A DNA stretch of 21,284 nucleotides from IMG/VR virus record IMGVR_UViG_3300007541_000280, positions 1 through 21,284 of that record. One strand, 5' to 3'. Under the pieces are notes generated by a model that worked only from the letters and a program-made list of their open reading frames with translations, did not search any database and was not told where the DNA came from. Shown here one piece after another: positions 1-19,680 of the stretch. Every line of letters starts with the position of its first letter. Positions within the stretch are counted from its first letter, which is position 1. The position numbers were made by a program, and so were the translations under genes. The DNA is from a virus.

Positions 1-222
1 GAAGAAATGCTAATCAAAAAAATTGATGGTGATAATATAACCGTTGTTAGAGGTATGGATACTTCAATAGCATCATCACATAAAAGTGGAGATGCTATTG
101 ACATTATTAATTCAATTGATGATGATTTAATTGATATTGGAGATGACTTTGGTTTCAGTGAGTCTAGATTTGATTTTGGTGATGGAAGAGTTTATAGTCC
201 AACTAAAGGAGTAGATGTATGA
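1..222 (+). CDS. C-terminal end of a probable virion (neck/tail) structural protein, 5'-truncated
   Basis: The reading frame is open from the first base of the window (two Glu codons precede the first Met), so this is the tail end of a gene starting upstream. About 73 residues are visible. The segment EEMLIKKIDGDNITVVRG followed by an ASSHKSGD stretch is a pattern I know from phage structural proteins, where a beta-strand pair carries a (V/T)VVRG motif. The remaining tail is rich in Asp, Ser and Gly. The next gene, gp16, starts inside its stop codon (ATGA), so the two are translationally coupled. In T4-like phages the genes before gp16 are the neck and tail-terminator genes gp13, gp14 and gp15, so one of these or a cyanophage-specific neighbour is likely, but too little remains to choose. 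Confidence 0.6.
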   Translation, partial: EEMLIKKIDGDNITVVRGMDTSIASSHKSGDAIDIINSIDDDLIDIGDDFGFSESRFDFGDGRVYSPTKGVDV

Positions 223-632
223 GTGAAACATTTGATAAAATAAATCAATCCTTAGATGTAGAAGTCACTGCTAATGAAGTAGTGAAAGAAACTAAAAAGC
301 AGTTAGCAGAGATCCAAAAGAAGAGTGATTCGGTTACTGACTATGAGTATACACGAGGAAATCTTTATTCTTTGATCGAAAAGGGTCAAGAAGCAATTAA
401 TGGTATTCTTGAACTGGCAGAAGAAGGGCAACAACCAAGATCATATGAAGTTGTTGGACAATTGATCAAAAGTGTCGGTGATGTAACAGATAAGTTAATA
501 GATCTTCAGCAGAAGATGAAAGATCTAAATAAAGAAGAGAAGAACACTCCAACTACTGTTAATAATGCATTGTTTGTTGGATCAACCGCAGAACTACAAA
601 AACTCCTAAAGCAAGGATTTAGCAAAGAATGA
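219..632 (+). CDS. gp16: Terminase small subunit gp16
   Basis: 137 residues, predicted almost entirely helical. In T4, gp16 forms an oligomeric ring that recognises concatemeric DNA and stimulates the gp17 packaging motor. The central segment (about residues 40-100) with TRGNLYSLIEKGQEAINGIL and a YEVVGQLIKSV helix matches the conserved core of T4-like small terminases, which includes the coiled-coil oligomerisation region. The length is close to T4 gp16 (about 164), slightly shorter as is usual in cyanophages. The start overlaps the upstream stop (ATGA), and the stop TGA overlaps the ATG of the next gene. Its position just before gp17, separated only by two accessory genes, supports the call. 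Confidence 0.85.
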   Translation: MSETFDKINQSLDVEVTANEVVKETKKQLAEIQKKSDSVTDYEYTRGNLYSLIEKGQEAINGILELAEEGQQPRSYEVVGQLIKSVGDVTDKLIDLQQKMKDLNKEEKNTPTTVNNALFVGSTAELQKLLKQGFSKE

Positions 633-1588
633 AAACTTTCAAAAACTTTATGGAGGCGTCAACTTGCCTTCACACAAAAGAAGGGGAGAAGTGTCCAGTT
701 CATGGCACGAAAGAATGCCCAGAAGTTATTGAAACACCAAGAAAGAAAAGTAAAAATTATCTTTTGAATAATAAAACAATTGGTGAAGCAAAAGAGAAAG
801 ACCATGAATATTCAATGGCACGGTCTGAACTAAAGACTGTAACTAATGCAGCAAAACGTCTTCAGAAGAAGATGGGCAAAAAAGGTGAAGGAAATCTTCA
901 GGCATGGGTACAATCAAAAATTACTAAGGCAGCAGATTACATTGATACGGCAGCAGATTATGTCACTAATGAAGAAACCATTGTAGAAAAACTGGATGGA
1001 AAAACACCAAGAGATCCTGGTTATTCGTTGAAGGACTGGTTTAAGGGTTGGGTTCAAACTGGTGGAAAATATGATGGAAAACCTTGTGCTAAGCAACCAG
1101 GTCAGACCACTAAACCTTATTGTAGAGATGCGGATGTTCGTGCATCAATGGATCCTGAAGAGAGAGAAAGAAGAGTAAAGAAAAAACGTAGAGAAGACCC
1201 AAATCCAAACCGTAAAGGTAAAGCAAAAAATGTTTCAATGGAAGCAGTTGATGCAACAAAGTATGGTGGTCCAGATAAACTCCTTCAGAGATTGGTTCCA
1301 AAAGGAGAAAAGGTTATTCCATCAACTCCCAAAAAAACTGCTAATGTAAAAGAGTCGTATTTAAGAATACAGGAAAGAGGAAAAACATATAGTATTATTT
1401 TAAATTGGAGGGGTAAATCAATTACAACTCAAATGTTTTTCCCTAAGTTTGGAAGACCGTCCAAATCTGAAGTTTTAGGAGAAATCGTAAAGGTTTATCC
1501 TGGTGCAAAGGTTCTGTACTATAATCCAGTCATGAGGGATCCAACCCAACCTTTACTTTTTGCAGGTACACAAAATGAACCCAGATGA
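629..1588 (+). CDS. Modular protein with T4 internal-protein-like N-terminus; candidate capsid-internal protein
   Basis: 319 residues in several blocks. (1) Residues 1-10, MKTFKNFMEA, resemble the T4 internal-protein targeting peptide MKTYQEFIAEA. (2) Residues 13-30 hold Cys13, His15, Cys22, His25 and Cys30, a possible zinc-binding cluster. (3) Residues 58-112 form a helical block containing HEYSMARSEL and WVQSKITKAADYIDTAADY. (4) Residues 131-205 contain DWFKGWVQTGGKYDGKPC, an Arg/Lys-rich tail and a second Cys, resembling DUF5872-type domains. (5) Residues 243-312 contain YLRIQERGKTYSII, FFPKFGRPSKSEV and YPGAKV. I recall blocks 3-5 from other marine T4-like phage proteins in other combinations, but could not check. 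IGE|A at residues 51-54 fits the gp21 cleavage consensus [L/I]xE|A. Inserted between gp16 and gp17 with an ATGA overlap upstream. Function unknown. Confidence 0.8.
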   Translation: MKTFKNFMEASTCLHTKEGEKCPVHGTKECPEVIETPRKKSKNYLLNNKTIGEAKEKDHEYSMARSELKTVTNAAKRLQKKMGKKGEGNLQAWVQSKITKAADYIDTAADYVTNEETIVEKLDGKTPRDPGYSLKDWFKGWVQTGGKYDGKPCAKQPGQTTKPYCRDADVRASMDPEERERRVKKKRREDPNPNRKGKAKNVSMEAVDATKYGGPDKLLQRLVPKGEKVIPSTPKKTANVKESYLRIQERGKTYSIILNWRGKSITTQMFFPKFGRPSKSEVLGEIVKVYPGAKVLYYNPVMRDPTQPLLFAGTQNEPR

Positions 1589-8724: not shown

Positions 8725-8990
8725 TTATTAGACCAGTATCTGCTTCTGAGGATATTCAAGCAGCAGCAAGTGTAGATGCAACTATTCTTTCGAATACGTT
8801 AATTTATATTGTAAATACAAATAACGCAGCTGCTGGAATCCTAGTTGCAGGATCTACGCCCAGAACCATTTACGTTTCAGCAAACAGTAGCATTGTTATT
8901 GAAAAAGAACATGGTGCTGCATTAGATTCTACTGGACAAGCTGGAATAAGTACACATGTTTGGGCTCAAGCAGTAGCATACACAAATTAA
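8721..8990 (+). CDS. Unknown 89-residue beta-rich protein in the prohead operon
   Basis: 89 residues, translationally coupled to the gp67-like gene (ATGA) and followed six bases later by gp21. It begins MIIRPVSASEDIQAAASVD, then alternates short hydrophobic strands (TLIYIVNT, RTIYVSANSSIVIEKE) with small-residue loops, and ends HVWAQAVAYTN. No cysteines, signal peptide or membrane segment. This looks like a small beta-sandwich, of the sort used for capsid decoration or tail attachment. I recall similar proteins at this place in other marine T4-like phages but know no assigned function. T4 has gp68 at this spot, but the sequence does not look like gp68, which is a helical core protein. Confidence 0.75.
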   Translation: MIIRPVSASEDIQAAASVDATILSNTLIYIVNTNNAAAGILVAGSTPRTIYVSANSSIVIEKEHGAALDSTGQAGISTHVWAQAVAYTN

Positions 8991-8995
8991 GAAAA

Positions 8996-9646
8996 ATGAA
9001 ACTTATCCGAGAAGAAGTCGAAACCGTAGATTTTATCGTTGAAGAAAAAAACGGTAAAAAGAGCATGTATATTGAGGGAACTTTCCTTCAAGGCGATATC
9101 AAGAACCGCAACGGTAGAATGTATCCTATTCAAACTCTCTGCAGAGAGGTTAATAGATACAATGAAATGTATACCAACAAAGGTAGAGCACTTGGTGAAC
9201 TCGGTCACCCCGATGGACCAACAATCAACCTTGATCGTGTATCACACAAAATCGTAAAACTTGAGCAAAGAGGTTCAAACATTTACGGTAAGGCGAAACT
9301 TCTTGAAACTCCAATGGGCAAAATTGCCAAATCCCTGATTAATGAGGGAGTAAAACTTGGTGTTTCTTCTCGTGGCGTTGGTTCAATCAAAATGAACAAC
9401 GAGGGCGTAAATATTGTTGGTGAAGACTTTATGTTGGCAACCGCTGCAGATATCGTCGCTGATCCTTCTGCACCAGATGCATTTGTTGATGGAATCATGG
9501 AAGGAAAAGAATGGGTTTGGGAAGGTGGAATCCTTCGTGAAAGATTTGCATCCCATACCAGAAACAGGATAAATACATTAGTTGATCAACGTGCTCTTGA
9601 AGAGCACAAACTTCAACTGTTTAATGATTTTCTATCAAATTTGTAA
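8996..9646 (+). CDS. gp21: Prohead maturation protease gp21
   Basis: 216 residues from ATG at 8996 (T4 gp21 is 212). An in-frame TTG at 8960 would add twelve residues that belong to the upstream gene's region and is rejected. It is the serine protease of the T4-type prohead (herpesvirus assemblin-like fold). It cleaves scaffold, capsid N-terminus and internal proteins after Glu in [L/I]xE sites. The catalytic His lies in the GELGHP motif (His71), and the nucleophile Ser in KLGVSSRGVGS (Ser124 or Ser125). IKNRNGRMYP near residues 36-44 is also typical of phage prohead proteases. The substrates gp22, gp23 and the gp67-like protein surround it, and several other window proteins carry candidate cleavage sites. 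Confidence 0.95.
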   Translation: MKLIREEVETVDFIVEEKNGKKSMYIEGTFLQGDIKNRNGRMYPIQTLCREVNRYNEMYTNKGRALGELGHPDGPTINLDRVSHKIVKLEQRGSNIYGKAKLLETPMGKIAKSLINEGVKLGVSSRGVGSIKMNNEGVNIVGEDFMLATAADIVADPSAPDAFVDGIMEGKEWVWEGGILRERFASHTRNRINTLVDQRALEEHKLQLFNDFLSNL

Positions 9647-9702: not shown

Positions 9703-10836
9703 ATGTCCAGTGGAAAAGATTTACAAGAAATGGAAGTAGGCACTGCTCAATCCAAGACAGCCGTTAACGCTAACGCAAAACCTGGCGATCCAATGCCTTC
9801 GGGTAATGCATCTGGTGTAATGGCACCAGGTCAAACTGGATCTTGGGAAGATCTTGGCGGTCCTACCCCAGAGAATTACAAAGCAGACGACGATTCAGCA
9901 AAACTGAAGACTCCTGGTGCTTCACTGAAGCAAGTAAGAGATGTCGTCAATTCTAAGGCGGTTAAGGCTGAGGAAGTTGAGGTAGAAGACCAAGAATTAG
10001 TTGCCGAAGAAGAAGTGACCGAAGAGGACGCTCTCCGTAGCAAAGTTGAAGAAGCAATTTCCGAATCAGAAGAAGAGGTTGTTGCTGAAGAGACCGAAGA
10101 AGAAGTCGTTGAACTGAACATTGAAGAAGATGTTGAAGCACTTCTTCAAGGTGAAGAACTCTCCGAAGAGTTCCAGGAAAAGGCAAAAGTTATCTTTGAA
10201 TCTGCAATCAATGCTAAAGTTGCAGCAATCAGAGAAGAACTGCAGCAGTCCTACGAAAATGCAATCGTAGAACAAGTAGAAGAATTCAAGAGTGAGATCA
10301 CCGAAAGAGTTGACTCATATCTTGAGTATGTTGCTGACGAGTGGATCCAAGAAAATGCACTCGCAGTTGAAGAAGGTCTTAAGACCGAGATGACCGAATC
10401 ATTCCTCCAAGGAATGAAGGGTCTTTTTGAAGAACATTATGTAACAATCCCTGAAGATAGATATGATGTACTTGAGAGCATGGTAAATAAACTTGATGAA
10501 ATGGAAGAAAAACTCAACGAGCAAATCGAAAGAAATGTTGCTCTAAACAAGAGACTGGCAGAGTCTGTTACCGATGGAATCTTAGGTGAAGTTTCTGAGG
10601 GACTTGCAGTTACTCAGAAAGAAAAACTCGCTTCTCTTTCCGAAAGTGTTGAGTTTGAAAGTGAAGAAGACTACCGTGAGAAACTGGTTACCTTGAAGGA
10701 AGCATACTTCCCATCAAGAGTAGTTAGTGCTCAAAGAGATTCCGCTGAGTTTATTTCAGAAAACAATTCACAGATCTATTCATCTGGATCCATGAGTGGT
10801 TATCTGTCTGCACTCCAGAGAGTTTCTAAAAAGTAA
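9703..10836 (+). CDS. gp22: Prohead core scaffolding protein gp22
   Basis: 377 residues (T4 gp22 is 269), forming the bulk of the internal scaffold on which gp23 assembles, then digested by gp21. The N-terminal 90 residues are low-complexity (MEVGTAQSKTAVNANAKPGD, several Gly/Pro stretches). Residues about 85-150 are extremely acidic, with many Glu repeats. The remainder is predicted long helical coiled coil, with FESAINAKVAAIREELQQSY and MVNKLDEMEEKLNEQIERNV. The C-terminal end resembles T4-like scaffolds (AYFPSRVV, SGSMSGYLSALQRVSKK). It is preceded by a late promoter and GGAGAG, and followed by gp23, exactly as in T4. The longer acidic N-terminal part accounts for the extra length. Confidence 0.93.
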   Translation: MSSGKDLQEMEVGTAQSKTAVNANAKPGDPMPSGNASGVMAPGQTGSWEDLGGPTPENYKADDDSAKLKTPGASLKQVRDVVNSKAVKAEEVEVEDQELVAEEEVTEEDALRSKVEEAISESEEEVVAEETEEEVVELNIEEDVEALLQGEELSEEFQEKAKVIFESAINAKVAAIREELQQSYENAIVEQVEEFKSEITERVDSYLEYVADEWIQENALAVEEGLKTEMTESFLQGMKGLFEEHYVTIPEDRYDVLESMVNKLDEMEEKLNEQIERNVALNKRLAESVTDGILGEVSEGLAVTQKEKLASLSESVEFESEEDYREKLVTLKEAYFPSRVVSAQRDSAEFISENNSQIYSSGSMSGYLSALQRVSKK

Positions 10837-10886: not shown

Positions 10887-12311
10887 ATGCAAATGTTCAA
10901 TTCTGAGCATCTGCAGGAGAAGTGGGCACCATTACTTGATTATGATGGAGTTGATCCTATTAGGGATTCCCATCGCAGAATGGTAACCGCTGTCCTGCTC
11001 GAAAACCAAGAAAAATTCATGACCGAGGAGCGTGCGTTCCTCTCCGAATCACCCACCAACGCTGCTAACGCTGCTGGTGCATCTGGTGCATTCGGTGGTA
11101 GCTCTGCCGCTGGTGGTGCTACCGCAGGTTTCGACCCCGTTCTGATCTCGCTGATCAGACGTTCAATGCCCAACCTGGTCGCTTATGACCTCGCAGGCGT
11201 TCAACCAATGAACGGTCCTACTGGACTGATCTTTGCAATGCGTTCACGCTACACCAACCAGTCTGGTACTGAGGCACTCTTTGACGAGGCACAGTCACAG
11301 TTCTCTGGTCAGGACAGCGGCTACAATCTGGAGCAAGGTCTTTACACCGCTCAAGCATCTGACGGTGTGTCAGTTGGTTTCGGTACTACTAGTTCCACCA
11401 ACCTCGGTTCAAATCCTGGTCTTCTCAACTCGTCAATCTCACAAGCTGAGTACGCAGTTGGTCAGGGTATGCACACTGGCGACGCTGAGACTCTTGGCGA
11501 CGGTGTTGGTAATGCATTCAACGAGATGGCATTCTCTATTGAGAAAGTCACCGTTACTGCAAAGTCAAGAGCACTGAAGGCCGAGTATTCACTCGAACTC
11601 GCTCAGGACCTCAAGGCAATTCACGGTCTGAACGCAGAAGCTGAGTTGGCAAACATTCTGTCAACTGAGATCCTTGCAGAAATCAACCGTGAAGTCATCA
11701 GAACCATCTATAAGGTTGCTGAGCCTGGTGCTGCTGCAAACACCGCAACTTCAGGTATCTTTGACCTGGACGTTGACTCCAACGGTCGCTGGAGCGTTGA
11801 GAAGTTCAAGGGTCTGCTGTTCCAAATTGAAAGAGATGCGAACGCTATCGCCCAAAGAACTCGTAGAGGGAAGGGCAACATGATCCTCTGCTCTGCAGAC
11901 GTTGCCTCCGCACTCACCATGGCAGGTGTTCTTGATTACACCCCTGCTCTGAACGCCAACCTCAACGTTGACGACACTGGCAACACCTTCGCTGGTGTTC
12001 TCCAAGGTAAGTATCGTGTATACATCGATCCTTATTCTGCAAACGTTTCTGCTAATCAGTACTACGTTGTTGGTTATAAGGGTTCTTCACCTTATGACGC
12101 TGGTCTGTTCTATTGCCCATACGTTCCTCTCCAAATGGTTCGTGCCGTTGGTCAGGACACCTTCCAACCCAAGATCGGATTCAAGACCCGTTACGGAATG
12201 GTTTCTAACCCATTCGCTGAGGGTTCATTTGCTGATGGTCAAGGTCTTGGTCGTATCAAGGCAAACAGCAACCGCTACTACAGAAGAGTACGTGTTGACA
12301 ACCTCATGTGA
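10887..12311 (+). CDS. gp23: Major capsid protein gp23
   Basis: 474 residues (T4 precursor 521), HK97 fold. The segments SLIRRSMPNLVAYDLAGVQP and MNGPTGLIFAMRSRY are the hallmark of T4-like gp23, as are EMAFSIEKVTVTAKSRALKA and YKGSSPYDAGLFYCPYVPL. The N-terminal prodomain (1-54) ends in FLSE|S, which fits the gp21 consensus [L/I]xE; T4 gp23 is cut after Glu65 just before a similar Ala/Gly-rich stretch. The mature chain would start at Ser55. Codon use is visibly richer in C-ending codons than in the neighbouring small genes, as expected for the most highly expressed late gene. It is followed after 26 nt by a strong terminator, closing the head operon. Confidence 0.98.
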   Translation: MQMFNSEHLQEKWAPLLDYDGVDPIRDSHRRMVTAVLLENQEKFMTEERAFLSESPTNAANAAGASGAFGGSSAAGGATAGFDPVLISLIRRSMPNLVAYDLAGVQPMNGPTGLIFAMRSRYTNQSGTEALFDEAQSQFSGQDSGYNLEQGLYTAQASDGVSVGFGTTSSTNLGSNPGLLNSSISQAEYAVGQGMHTGDAETLGDGVGNAFNEMAFSIEKVTVTAKSRALKAEYSLELAQDLKAIHGLNAEAELANILSTEILAEINREVIRTIYKVAEPGAAANTATSGIFDLDVDSNGRWSVEKFKGLLFQIERDANAIAQRTRRGKGNMILCSADVASALTMAGVLDYTPALNANLNVDDTGNTFAGVLQGKYRVYIDPYSANVSANQYYVVGYKGSSPYDAGLFYCPYVPLQMVRAVGQDTFQPKIGFKTRYGMVSNPFAEGSFADGQGLGRIKANSNRYYRRVRVDNLM

Positions 12312-12362: not shown

Positions 12363-12367
12363 ATCTA

Positions 12368-12375
12368 AATAAATA
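12368..12375 (+). promoter_or_regulatory. Late promoter-like AATAAATA after the gp23 terminator
   Basis: AATAAATA directly behind the T-tract of the gp23 terminator and 8 nt before the ATG of the next gene. Such a short distance would give a very short leader, so the motif may be imperfectly placed or shared with an adjacent A/T-rich copy. Confidence 0.4.
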
Positions 12376-12383
12376 TAAAACTC

Positions 12384-12590
12384 ATGAAATCATATCAAAA
12401 TTTCATCAGTGAAGCATCTAAAAAAAGATGTCCTTCGGGGAAGTATTGGTGTTTTACTGATAAAAAATGTAAGAATATTCCAGCAGGTTTCATGATAGAT
12501 CGTGCAGGAATGTTAGCAAAAGAGAATGGTCACACTCAAGATTCCGAATCTGAGGAGAATGGTAATGGTGGAAATGGAGGAGGAGAATGA
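12384..12590 (+). CDS. Small cysteine-containing protein with capsid-targeting-like N-terminus
   Basis: 68 residues. Residues 1-11, MKSYQNFISEA, align without gaps to the T4 internal-protein targeting peptide MKTYQEFIAEA, with 8 of 11 identical, and ISE|A fits the gp21 cleavage consensus. Behind it is a compact cysteine motif, RCPSGKYWCFTDKKCKNIP (Cys16, Cys23, Cys29), which could bind metal or form a disulfide. The C-terminal tail is polar and ends in Asn/Gly/Glu repeats. These last codons (GGAGGAGGAG) also serve as the Shine-Dalgarno for the next gene, which starts within the stop codon (ATGA). It sits directly after the capsid operon terminator with a late promoter motif. If cleaved it would leave a 58-residue packaged peptide. 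Function unknown. Confidence 0.75.
   Translation: MKSYQNFISEASKKRCPSGKYWCFTDKKCKNIPAGFMIDRAGMLAKENGHTQDSESEENGNGGNGGGE
12576..12585 (+). promoter_or_regulatory. Coding Shine-Dalgarno GGAGGAGGAG
   Basis: The Gly-Gly-Glu codons at the end of the preceding gene make a very strong ribosome binding site about 6 nt before the ATG at 12587, supporting that start and tight translational coupling. Confidence 0.7.
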
Positions 12591-19014: not shown

Positions 19015-19022
19015 AATAAATA
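19015..19022 (+). promoter_or_regulatory. Late promoter-like AATAAATA directly after the gp46 stop
   Basis: AATAAATA begins at the base after the gp46 TGA and lies 16 nt before the next ATG. It marks a switch from an early-type operon to a late cassette. Confidence 0.55.
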
Positions 19023-19037: not shown

Positions 19038-19199
19038 ATGAAGACTTTTAGTAAATTTATTGAAGAGAGTGGTTCTCCATATCAAGAGTATAAAGGAAAA
19101 CCACAACCAAAACCATCTGCTCCCCCTGAAGGTTGGGAAGAGTTCAAAAAGAAGTACCTTCATGGTAAAATGAGTGAGAAGAAAAAACCAGAGCAATGA
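19038..19199 (+). CDS. Small protein with capsid-targeting-like N-terminus
   Basis: 53 residues. Residues 1-11, MKTFSKFIEES, align without gaps to the T4 internal-protein peptide MKTYQEFIAEA, and IEE|S fits the gp21 [L/I]xE consensus. The remainder is short, Pro/Lys-rich and ends basic (PQPKPSAPPEGWEEFKKKY, then a Lys-rich tail). After cleavage a 43-residue basic peptide would be left, comparable in nature to the small basic peptides found inside T4 heads. It is preceded by a late promoter motif, has only a weak ribosome site, and overlaps the next small gene by ATGA. I do not recognise the family. Confidence 0.65.
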   Translation: MKTFSKFIEESGSPYQEYKGKPQPKPSAPPEGWEEFKKKYLHGKMSEKKKPEQ

Positions 19200-19333
19200 A
19201 CACTCCAAACTGGCAACACCACTCCAAGAAGGAGCAGAAGCGGAAACTGAAACCGCAAGCACTCCGACAAGCAAAGGCACGTCGCCAAGCACTCAAGAAG
19301 CGTCTCAATCAACGAGACGCTTCTTTTTTATAA
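19196..19333 (+). CDS. Very basic 45-residue protein ending in a terminator
   Basis: 45 residues, translationally coupled to the preceding gene (ATGA). The composition is extreme: mainly Lys, Arg, Gln, Ala and Leu (KKEQKRKLKPQALRQAKARR), predicted as one long amphipathic basic helix, with no acidic residues until Asp41. This suggests nucleic-acid binding, for example DNA condensation, but is not proof. Its last about ten codons form the stem, loop and T-tract of a perfect intrinsic terminator, and its TAA stop lies inside the next late promoter. It could be a spurious reading through a terminator, but the ATGA coupling and uninterrupted basic character favour a real gene. Confidence 0.5.
   Translation: MNTPNWQHHSKKEQKRKLKPQALRQAKARRQALKKRLNQRDASFL
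19297..19329 (+). terminator. Rho-independent terminator inside the basic-protein gene end
   Basis: Perfect 10-bp stem GAAGCGTCTC/GAGACGCTTC with a 7-nt loop (AATCAAC), followed by six T. It overlaps the coding end of the 45-residue basic protein and abuts the next late promoter. Confidence 0.92.
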
Positions 19334-19336
19334 ATA
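19329..19336 (+). promoter_or_regulatory. Late promoter TATAAATA behind the terminator
   Basis: Exact TATAAATA starting in the T-tract of the terminator and containing the stop codon of the basic-protein gene (19331-19333), 18 nt before the next ATG. Confidence 0.65.
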
Positions 19337-19353: not shown

Positions 19354-19680
19354 ATGGATTTAAAGAAATTTAGGGGATTTATTGAGGCATATGCTTCAAT
19401 CTATGTACCAATTAGCGAATCCCACTTTAAGGTTGGTGATGAAGTCACCTGCAAAGAAAGTGGAATGGAAGGTGAAGTTGTAAAGGTTGATCCAGAAGGA
19501 AAGGGGAAGTATTATACTGTCAAGCGTGAAGATGGTAAGACAGTAAAGTATGCTCCTGATGAATTGGAAAAGGAAAGCGAAGAAGAGGAAGGAGCAAGTA
19601 AAGAGAAGGAGACTGAGTTTCATTCAAAGTTAGATACGATGGTGCATAAGACCTTCGGCAAGAGAGAGGGGGAGAAGTAA
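19354..19680 (+). CDS. KOW/SH3-like small protein with possible capsid-targeting N-terminus
   Basis: 108 residues. The centre, FKVGDEVTCKESGMEGEVVK followed by YYTVKREDGKTVKYAPDELE (about 25-73), has the alternating beta pattern and Gly turns of a KOW/SH3-like barrel, a fold used for RNA, DNA or protein contacts. The N-terminus MDLKKFRGFIEAYAS loosely fits the K-x-F-x-x-F-x-EA pattern of the other candidates, three residues displaced, and PISE|S at residues 19-23 fits the gp21 cleavage consensus. The C-terminus is a charged Glu/Lys tail. It is a one-gene late unit: exact late promoter directly upstream, terminator 25 nt downstream. Function unknown. Confidence 0.75.
   Translation: MDLKKFRGFIEAYASIYVPISESHFKVGDEVTCKESGMEGEVVKVDPEGKGKYYTVKREDGKTVKYAPDELEKESEEEEGASKEKETEFHSKLDTMVHKTFGKREGEK

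Follow-up and report, generated by a model that had tools for sequence, protein, structure and literature searches.

The proteins starting at 12384 and 19038 in the head region of a T4-like cyanophage, and in a variant form the protein at 629, begin with what is probably a capsid-targeting peptide like those of T4 IPII and IPIII, probably cut by the prohead protease gp21 and carried on an accessory set of internal proteins. The window, by which we mean the whole 21,284-base stretch of DNA that was analysed, comprises the head and packaging module of this phage, an ocean virus of cyanobacteria. A first-pass annotation had proposed such a tag on four proteins; we find the observation real for two of them, possible for a third (629) and not for the fourth (19354). 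Targeting is strongly supported, because the peptide is enriched at N-termini, is absent from the T7-like contigs scanned, conserves the residues for targeting and cleavage and marks proteins most of which were detected in purified virions of relatives. Cleavage and delivery, which would make these proteins a cyanophage counterpart of the T4 internal proteins, are plausible. If true, the targeting peptide would explain enzymes in cyanophage virions, would predict packaged unknown proteins from sequence and would show viruses abundant in the ocean to share the internal-protein principle of T4.

Genomic setting of the tagged proteins

Genes in the window follow the order small terminase, large terminase, sheath, tube, portal, gp21, gp22, gp23, gp3-like, uvsY, uvsW, gp55, gp47 and gp46, the names of several being based on order and resemblance to P-SSM2 (Table 1). 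Nearly the same phage is represented by a 52.7-kb contig (G001), which encodes these tagged proteins too, spaced as in the window. The open reading frames annotated at 629, 12384, 19038 and 19354 were recovered with these starts, and their bodies proved unrelated, as had been claimed, with no phmmer cross-matches among the four at E<=1e-4. The cognate gp21 protease, also noted as encoded in the window, was confirmed there (PF03420, E 1.7e-33) together with the gp22 scaffold gene (PF25623). A late promoter motif had been noted before three of the four genes, and this too held: the late-promoter-like motif HTAAATA, of whose 16 occurrences in the window 7 fall within the 10.6% that is intergenic, lies upstream of 12384 (-19/-15), 19038 (-22) and 19354 (-24), and none precedes 629.

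Table 1. Features of the window discussed in the text, with positions counted from its first base; the arrow marks a predicted cleavage site.
Feature	Position	Strand	Basis
Small terminase (gp16)	219..632	+	phrog_445, E 3.7e-53
319-aa protein with variant tag MKTFKNFME↓AS (629-658); gene lies between those of the small and large terminases	629..1588	+	ORF
gp21 prohead protease, proposed processing enzyme	8996..9646	+	PF03420, E 1.7e-33, scanned from TTG at 8960
gp22 scaffold, proposed tag receptor of the prohead core	9703..10836	+	PF25623, E 1.7e-77
gp23 major capsid protein	10887..12311	+	PF07068; propeptide predicted to end at residue 54 (AFLSE↓S)
Late-promoter-like CTAAATAAATA upstream of 12384	12365..12375	+	HTAAATA motif
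68-aa protein with tag MKSYQNFISE↓A, followed by Cys domain RCPSGKYWCFTDKKCKNIP and a tail rich in Gly and Asn	12384..12590	+	10-residue tag coded by 12384-12413
Late-promoter-like ATAAATA upstream of 19038	19016..19022	+	HTAAATA motif
53-aa protein: tag MKTFSKFIEE↓S (19038-19067), short Pro/Lys-rich body	19038..19199	+	ORF; full four-position match
Late-promoter-like ATAAATA upstream of 19354	19330..19336	+	HTAAATA motif
108-aa protein MDLKKFRGFIEAYASIY, start MDLKKFRGFIEAYAS	19354..19680	+	weak SH3-like match; by its conservation the start is not a T4-type tag

Comparison with the T4 internal proteins

Mutagenesis of T4 IPIII, as described in the available text of PMC9026906, assigns targeting mainly to residues 4 and 7 and processing to residues 8 and 10, the first ten residues being required for packaging. 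From this we derived a four-position rule (aromatic 4, Phe7, hydrophobic 8, Glu10), and took the IPII/IPIII reference MKTYQEFIAEA from NC_000866. MKSYQNFISEA of the 12384 protein is identical to it at 8 of 11 positions, as first noted. The targeting residues are present as Y4/F7 in 12384 and F4/F7 in both 19038 and 629, and the processing residues (aliphatic 8, then Glu10 followed by a small residue) as I8/E10↓A in 12384 and I8/E10↓S in 19038. The 629 protein fits at residues 4, 7 and 8 and has Glu at 9 instead of 10; 19354 has neither set at these positions. Within T4, a start-codon scan with the rule recovered IPII, IPIII and gp61.1. IPI and Alt were not recovered, so the rule overlooks some true cases. 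T4 gp61.1, a 54-aa protein annotated as hypothetical, starts MKTFKEFIKED, a full four-position match (L212 1467-1631; NC_000866 18966-19130).

The window tags thus resemble those of IPII and IPIII (MKTYQEFIAE↓A) in length, N-terminal place, aromatic 4, Phe7, aliphatic 8 and Glu10 before a small residue. As in T4, the bodies are unrelated, gp21, gp22 and gp23 are present, and late-promoter-like motifs lie upstream of two of the three accepted genes (12384 and 19038, not 629). The predicted gp23 propeptide junction is of the same type as the tag junctions, both in the window and, as FLxE↓A, in P-SSM2, S-SCSM1, S-CAM9 and S-SRM01; gp23 of P-TIM68, S-CREM2 and Syn9 has related junctions, and in SynMITS9220M01, S-SM2 and contig G003 the junction regex had no match. 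In contrast, none of the four window proteins matched a T4 protein at E<=1e-4, and, unlike in T4, the cargo of cyanophage relatives includes enzymes; the tag also has a Glu9 variant, is in places fused to domains and is accompanied by a second common module. Head proteins of the giant phages SPN3US and phiKZ are also cut after Glu by a prohead protease, a likeness drawn from descriptions rather than compared sequences; the phiKZ motif, given as S/A-x-E in the available text of PMC9026906, differs. Our search of the open-licence PMC literature found no report of this tag in cyanophages.

Conservation of the tags within protein families

Homologs of 12384 were collected with six seed peptides, one of them the tag. 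The tag stands before the Cys domain in 71 of 80 loci (53 with Phe/Tyr4, the rest with Leu4), and the domain occurs without a tag in 9. Across 21 aligned rows, Lys2, Phe7, Ile8 and Glu10 are each at least 90% conserved. The AlphaFold model of 12384 was poor (pLDDT 68, pTM 0.42), and a PDB search with it returned nothing significant (best E 0.74); Pfam assigned none of 629, 12384 and 19038 to a family at E<=0.1. The 12384 gene ends in GGAGGAGGAGAATGA (12570-12590), which resembles a ribosome-binding site of the overlapping gp3-like gene, and this may be why a C-terminal GGE is conserved in the homologs.

For 19038, where the six seed peptides included the tag itself, Phe4 and Phe7 are found in 11/11 homologous loci, with Glu10 in 6 and only Glu9 (F[IM]E↓S) in 5. 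Linker and length have changed in four homologs that retain the tag.

Support for 629 is weaker. Its targeting residues are in place; the Glu is shifted, and Phe4/Phe7 are kept in only 4 of 79 relatives of the body, of which three have the form seen in the window; the fourth, L268, matches residues 41-115 of 629 at 83% identity and has a full tag, MKSFKSFLVEA. Five relatives at 70% identity begin MKKFTDWQRDVIEATTC, and most others have only body domains in common and start differently. The Glu9 form is nonetheless credible, since it occurs inside the 19038 family. Domains of 629 are also found in proteins of virions: S-SCSM1 gp29, labelled a virion protein, joins a 12384-like Cys domain to 629-like domains (phmmer E 3.5e-13 and 1.2e-15), and of two S-CREM2 proteins detected in virions, ORF160 is a 629 relative (phmmer E 2.7e-36) and ORF137 has the 629 C-terminal domain (E 2.6e-4). 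None of the three bears a strict tag, and these domains therefore enter virions by more than one route. The C-terminal domain is related to the tagged S-SCSM1 gp30 family as well. The AlphaFold model of 629 was poor (pLDDT 59, pTM 0.28).

The protein at 19354 was rejected as a fourth member. Its Phe pair sits two residues further in and is kept by only 8 of 48 homologs, 32 of which keep an EAYxSxY-like motif instead; this motif is weakly enriched near N-termini (10 found, 4.1 expected). A link between 19354 and the NMNAT C-terminal domain was too weak to retain (whole-sequence E 0.001, domain 0.028; BLASTP E 0.067). S-SCSM1 gp89 (L216 10357-11328), labelled a virion protein, begins MDSKTFNSLSEAYAAVY and resembles the 19354 start. 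The proposal of a capsid-packaged internal-protein set is well supported with respect to targeting, with a good fit for 12384 and 19038 and a partial one for 629, but not for 19354.

Enrichment of the tag at N-termini of T4-like cyanophages

The first-pass annotation had named a motif no commoner at N-termini than by chance as a refuting outcome. Of the 2,684 proteins predicted in ten marine T4-like genomes, 13 matched at the N-terminus. The rate over all internal positions predicts 0.14 matches and shuffled N-termini 0.2, which gives roughly a ninety-fold enrichment over the any-position rate; the four-position pattern followed 0 of 9,947 internal Met residues. Each of the five pattern versions run on these genomes was enriched. 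By our own count the 13 matches are seven NMNAT orthologs, three members of one small family and three single proteins, that is, five families, and they are for this reason not independent.

One gene caller missed 19038 and another S-CREM2 ORF6, and we therefore used a start-codon scan without gene calling. Across 16 records it gave 33 tag matches, compared with 6 for four altered-spacing patterns combined; two of the 33 have GTG starts that look spurious, and two in G001 repeat those of the window. HTVC008M gave no match and S-PM2 one doubtful GTG match. With a narrower pattern, which also misses the Syn9 tag, KVP40, S-SSM7 and P-HM2 gave none and S-SKS1 two.

As a control lineage we used T7-like contigs, 50 of the 80 found by the P-SSP7 head-tail adaptor gene, against 50 of the 80 found by the window's gp23. 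The coding pattern matched 19 times in the gp23-bearing set (1.15 Mb), in 14 of the 50 contigs; these are raw DNA pattern counts rather than individually verified open frames, and at least one, in G060 (the contig of L008), repeats 12384 almost exactly. The T7-like set (0.58 Mb) gave 0 matches, with 9.6 expected at the gp23-set rate, and the reversed pattern gave 0 in both sets.

These results leave next to no probability for a chance resemblance among short amphipathic N-termini. Such resemblances do arise, as 19354 illustrates, its start being tag-like although most homologs do not conserve it, and a looser regex, which we dropped, also picked up small terminases. The strength of the N-terminal enrichment, the few matches to altered spacings and the negative control lineage argue against chance as the general explanation.

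Tagged enzymes in related phages

The same tag (MKSFxQFLxEA and variants) heads the T4-GC190 cytidylyltransferase/NMNAT of cyanophages, which differs from the window proteins in being an enzyme of about 400 aa and is absent from the 21-kb fragment. We found 49 IMG/VR loci with the S-SCSM1 NMNAT protein, using seed peptides that all lay outside the tag; 47 reach residue 1, and the other two end at a contig edge, one of these being absent from the N-terminal alignment. Phe7, a hydrophobic residue 8 and Glu10 are present in 47/47, with Phe/Tyr4 in 41 and Leu4 in 6. The alignment holds 19 distinct N-termini, which all agree at residues 2, 7, 8 and 10 but vary at residue 9; the residue after Glu10 is Ala in 17 of them, Ser in 1 and Gly in 1. 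Tagged cargo of relatives includes a CTP_transf_like domain (PF01467) and, in S-CREM2 ORF6, a Pfam S-adenosylmethionine lyase domain (PF23780, E 2.3e-19). S-CREM2 ORF12 is annotated as a Cas9 nuclease; no Pfam family was found in it, so this name comes from the paper and the record alone.

That the common N-terminus is one domain duplicated before several genes by common descent, with no sorting role, has very little probability in our view. N-terminal segments do move together, as follows from a second N-terminal module, GLxSDGHGxWxDxxxGxxVAxT, common to NMNAT, the S-CREM2 kinase (two copies) and ORF12 (L220 7704-12846; S-SCSM1 L214 2320-3549). However, tags are also found without this module, tag-adjacent linkers diverge around an unchanging Phe7, position 8 and Glu10, and the 19038 homologs hold on to the tag despite replaced linkers.

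Detection of tagged proteins in virions of relatives

Virion mass spectrometry, named by the first-pass annotation as a check, is published for relatives of this phage, and we compared the tags with the portions of those papers that list or discuss virion proteins. For S-CREM2, 52 proteins with coordinates are reported (PMC10665884). Our scan of its genome found strict tags on ORF6 (SAM hydrolase), ORF14 (kinase), ORF136 and ORF154 (cytidylyltransferase), and a Leu4 tag on ORF13, a form that we admitted after the S-CREM2 table was known because NMNAT homologs show it too. The list contains all four strict carriers (p 0.0028) and, with ORF13, all five (p 0.0006), taking 221 features as the total. 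Two further detected proteins were left uncounted: ORF12, which has FASFMAEA at residue 19, and ORF15, which has MNFSEFNES before a Cys motif. Of the two tagged genes of S-SCSM1, one has a product found in the virion: mass spectrometry places the NMNAT there (PMC9602691), and gp30 is without a virion label. We counted 47 virion-labelled CDS in S-SCSM1, against 45 stated in the available text of that paper. In S-SM1 the only strict tag, by a DNA pattern scan that did not cover the Leu4 form, is on T4-GC190, which is reported from S-SM1 virions (1/1) and, in the sections available of PMC3037559, not from S-PM2 virions. In S-PM2 the homolog is embedded in a longer open frame, and the 200 residues preceding it contain no tag.

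Pooled over S-CREM2, S-SCSM1 and S-SM1, 6 of 7 strictly tagged proteins were detected (p 4e-4), or 7 of 8 with the Leu4 form (p 1e-4); leaving out the three NMNAT orthologs gives 3 of 4 strict (p 0.033), or 4 of 5 once Leu4 is admitted (p 0.009), the gene totals of S-SCSM1 and S-SM1 in these pooled p values being estimates from feature counts. The S-CRM01 kinase, also reported from virions (PMC10665884), starts MISFDQFLSE, which was read after the pooled counts. Against these counts stands S-CREM1, whose genome has three to four tagged starts and whose shallow virion proteome comprises 14 proteins, four structural and the other ten described as unknown or without matches in the part of PMC9964418 available. 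Given that description of the ten, its tagged NadR-like protein evidently went undetected. Most of the virion proteins listed for S-CREM2 and S-SCSM1 carry no tag.

The S-SM1, S-SCSM1 and S-CREM2 papers all report enzymes in virions, and in their available text two leave cargo versus contamination open. Contamination by abundant proteins is allowed for by the authors on S-SCSM1 (PMC9602691) and S-CREM2 (PMC10665884), and the missing NadR-like protein of S-CREM1 fits it as well. On this account the tagged proteins are abundant late cytoplasmic contaminants of CsCl-purified virions, with an N-terminus serving expression or stability. We hold this to be quite improbable, as detection is repeated across independent phages in the lists consulted, the T4 targeting and cleavage positions are conserved while position 9 varies and a small residue follows Glu10, and our scan of T7-like contigs did not find the pattern.

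A different reading accepts that a scaffold-binding peptide puts the proteins into the prohead core, and takes them for assembly factors that are destroyed or leave rather than for delivered cargo. The T4 core components gp67 and gp68 are indeed fragmented or absent in the mature head (PMC9026906, available text), the window's tagged genes lie among or beside head genes, and the gp3-like gene directly follows 12384 homologs in 18 of 20 loci examined. Yet tagged proteins of relatives are reported from purified mature virions, and cargo such as the SAM lyase (PF23780) and the CTP_transf_like enzymes (PF01467) has no evident role in assembly; we therefore judge this reading unlikely.

Proposed route of tagged proteins into the virion

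Under the preferred reading, a targeting peptide on packaged internal proteins, the tagged proteins would be expressed late and retained in the core of the prohead through the aromatic residue 4 and Phe7, with gp22 as the most likely partner. gp21 would cut after Glu10, or Glu9 in the variant, before Ala or Ser, and so free the mature protein inside the head before DNA packaging. In T4-like cyanophages this portable tag is joined to unrelated cargo, including NMNAT/cytidylyltransferase, kinase, SAM lyase and small proteins, which would be carried in the virion and, by the T4 model, probably delivered along with the DNA. By analogy with IPI, an anti-restriction role for a packaged SAM lyase is plausible. 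We lean slightly towards a broader proposal, in which one portable ten-residue label pre-loads and injects an exchangeable effector set (NAD metabolism, kinase, SAM lyase, nuclease-like and small Cys-domain proteins) that includes the 12384, 19038 and 629 proteins of the window, so that host take-over and anti-restriction would begin before phage gene expression.

Tag fusions and neighbouring genes

P-TIM68 gp111 (L086 7708-8829) has an internal MKNFTSFMEAS directly before its Cys domain; CTAAATA precedes the ATG of this segment by 26 bases, and the internal sequence may be either a fused tag unit or an internal start. In seven loci (L027, L028, L046, L053, L058, L078 and L081) one protein bears two tags, the first at its N-terminus and the other ahead of the Cys domain; in L079 and L080 the second copy is tag-like. 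Tagged or tag-like neighbour genes (kinase, nuclease-like and small proteins) recur in S-CREM2 and S-CRM01 (L427, L220), and in S-N03 (L428) the tags are partly degraded.
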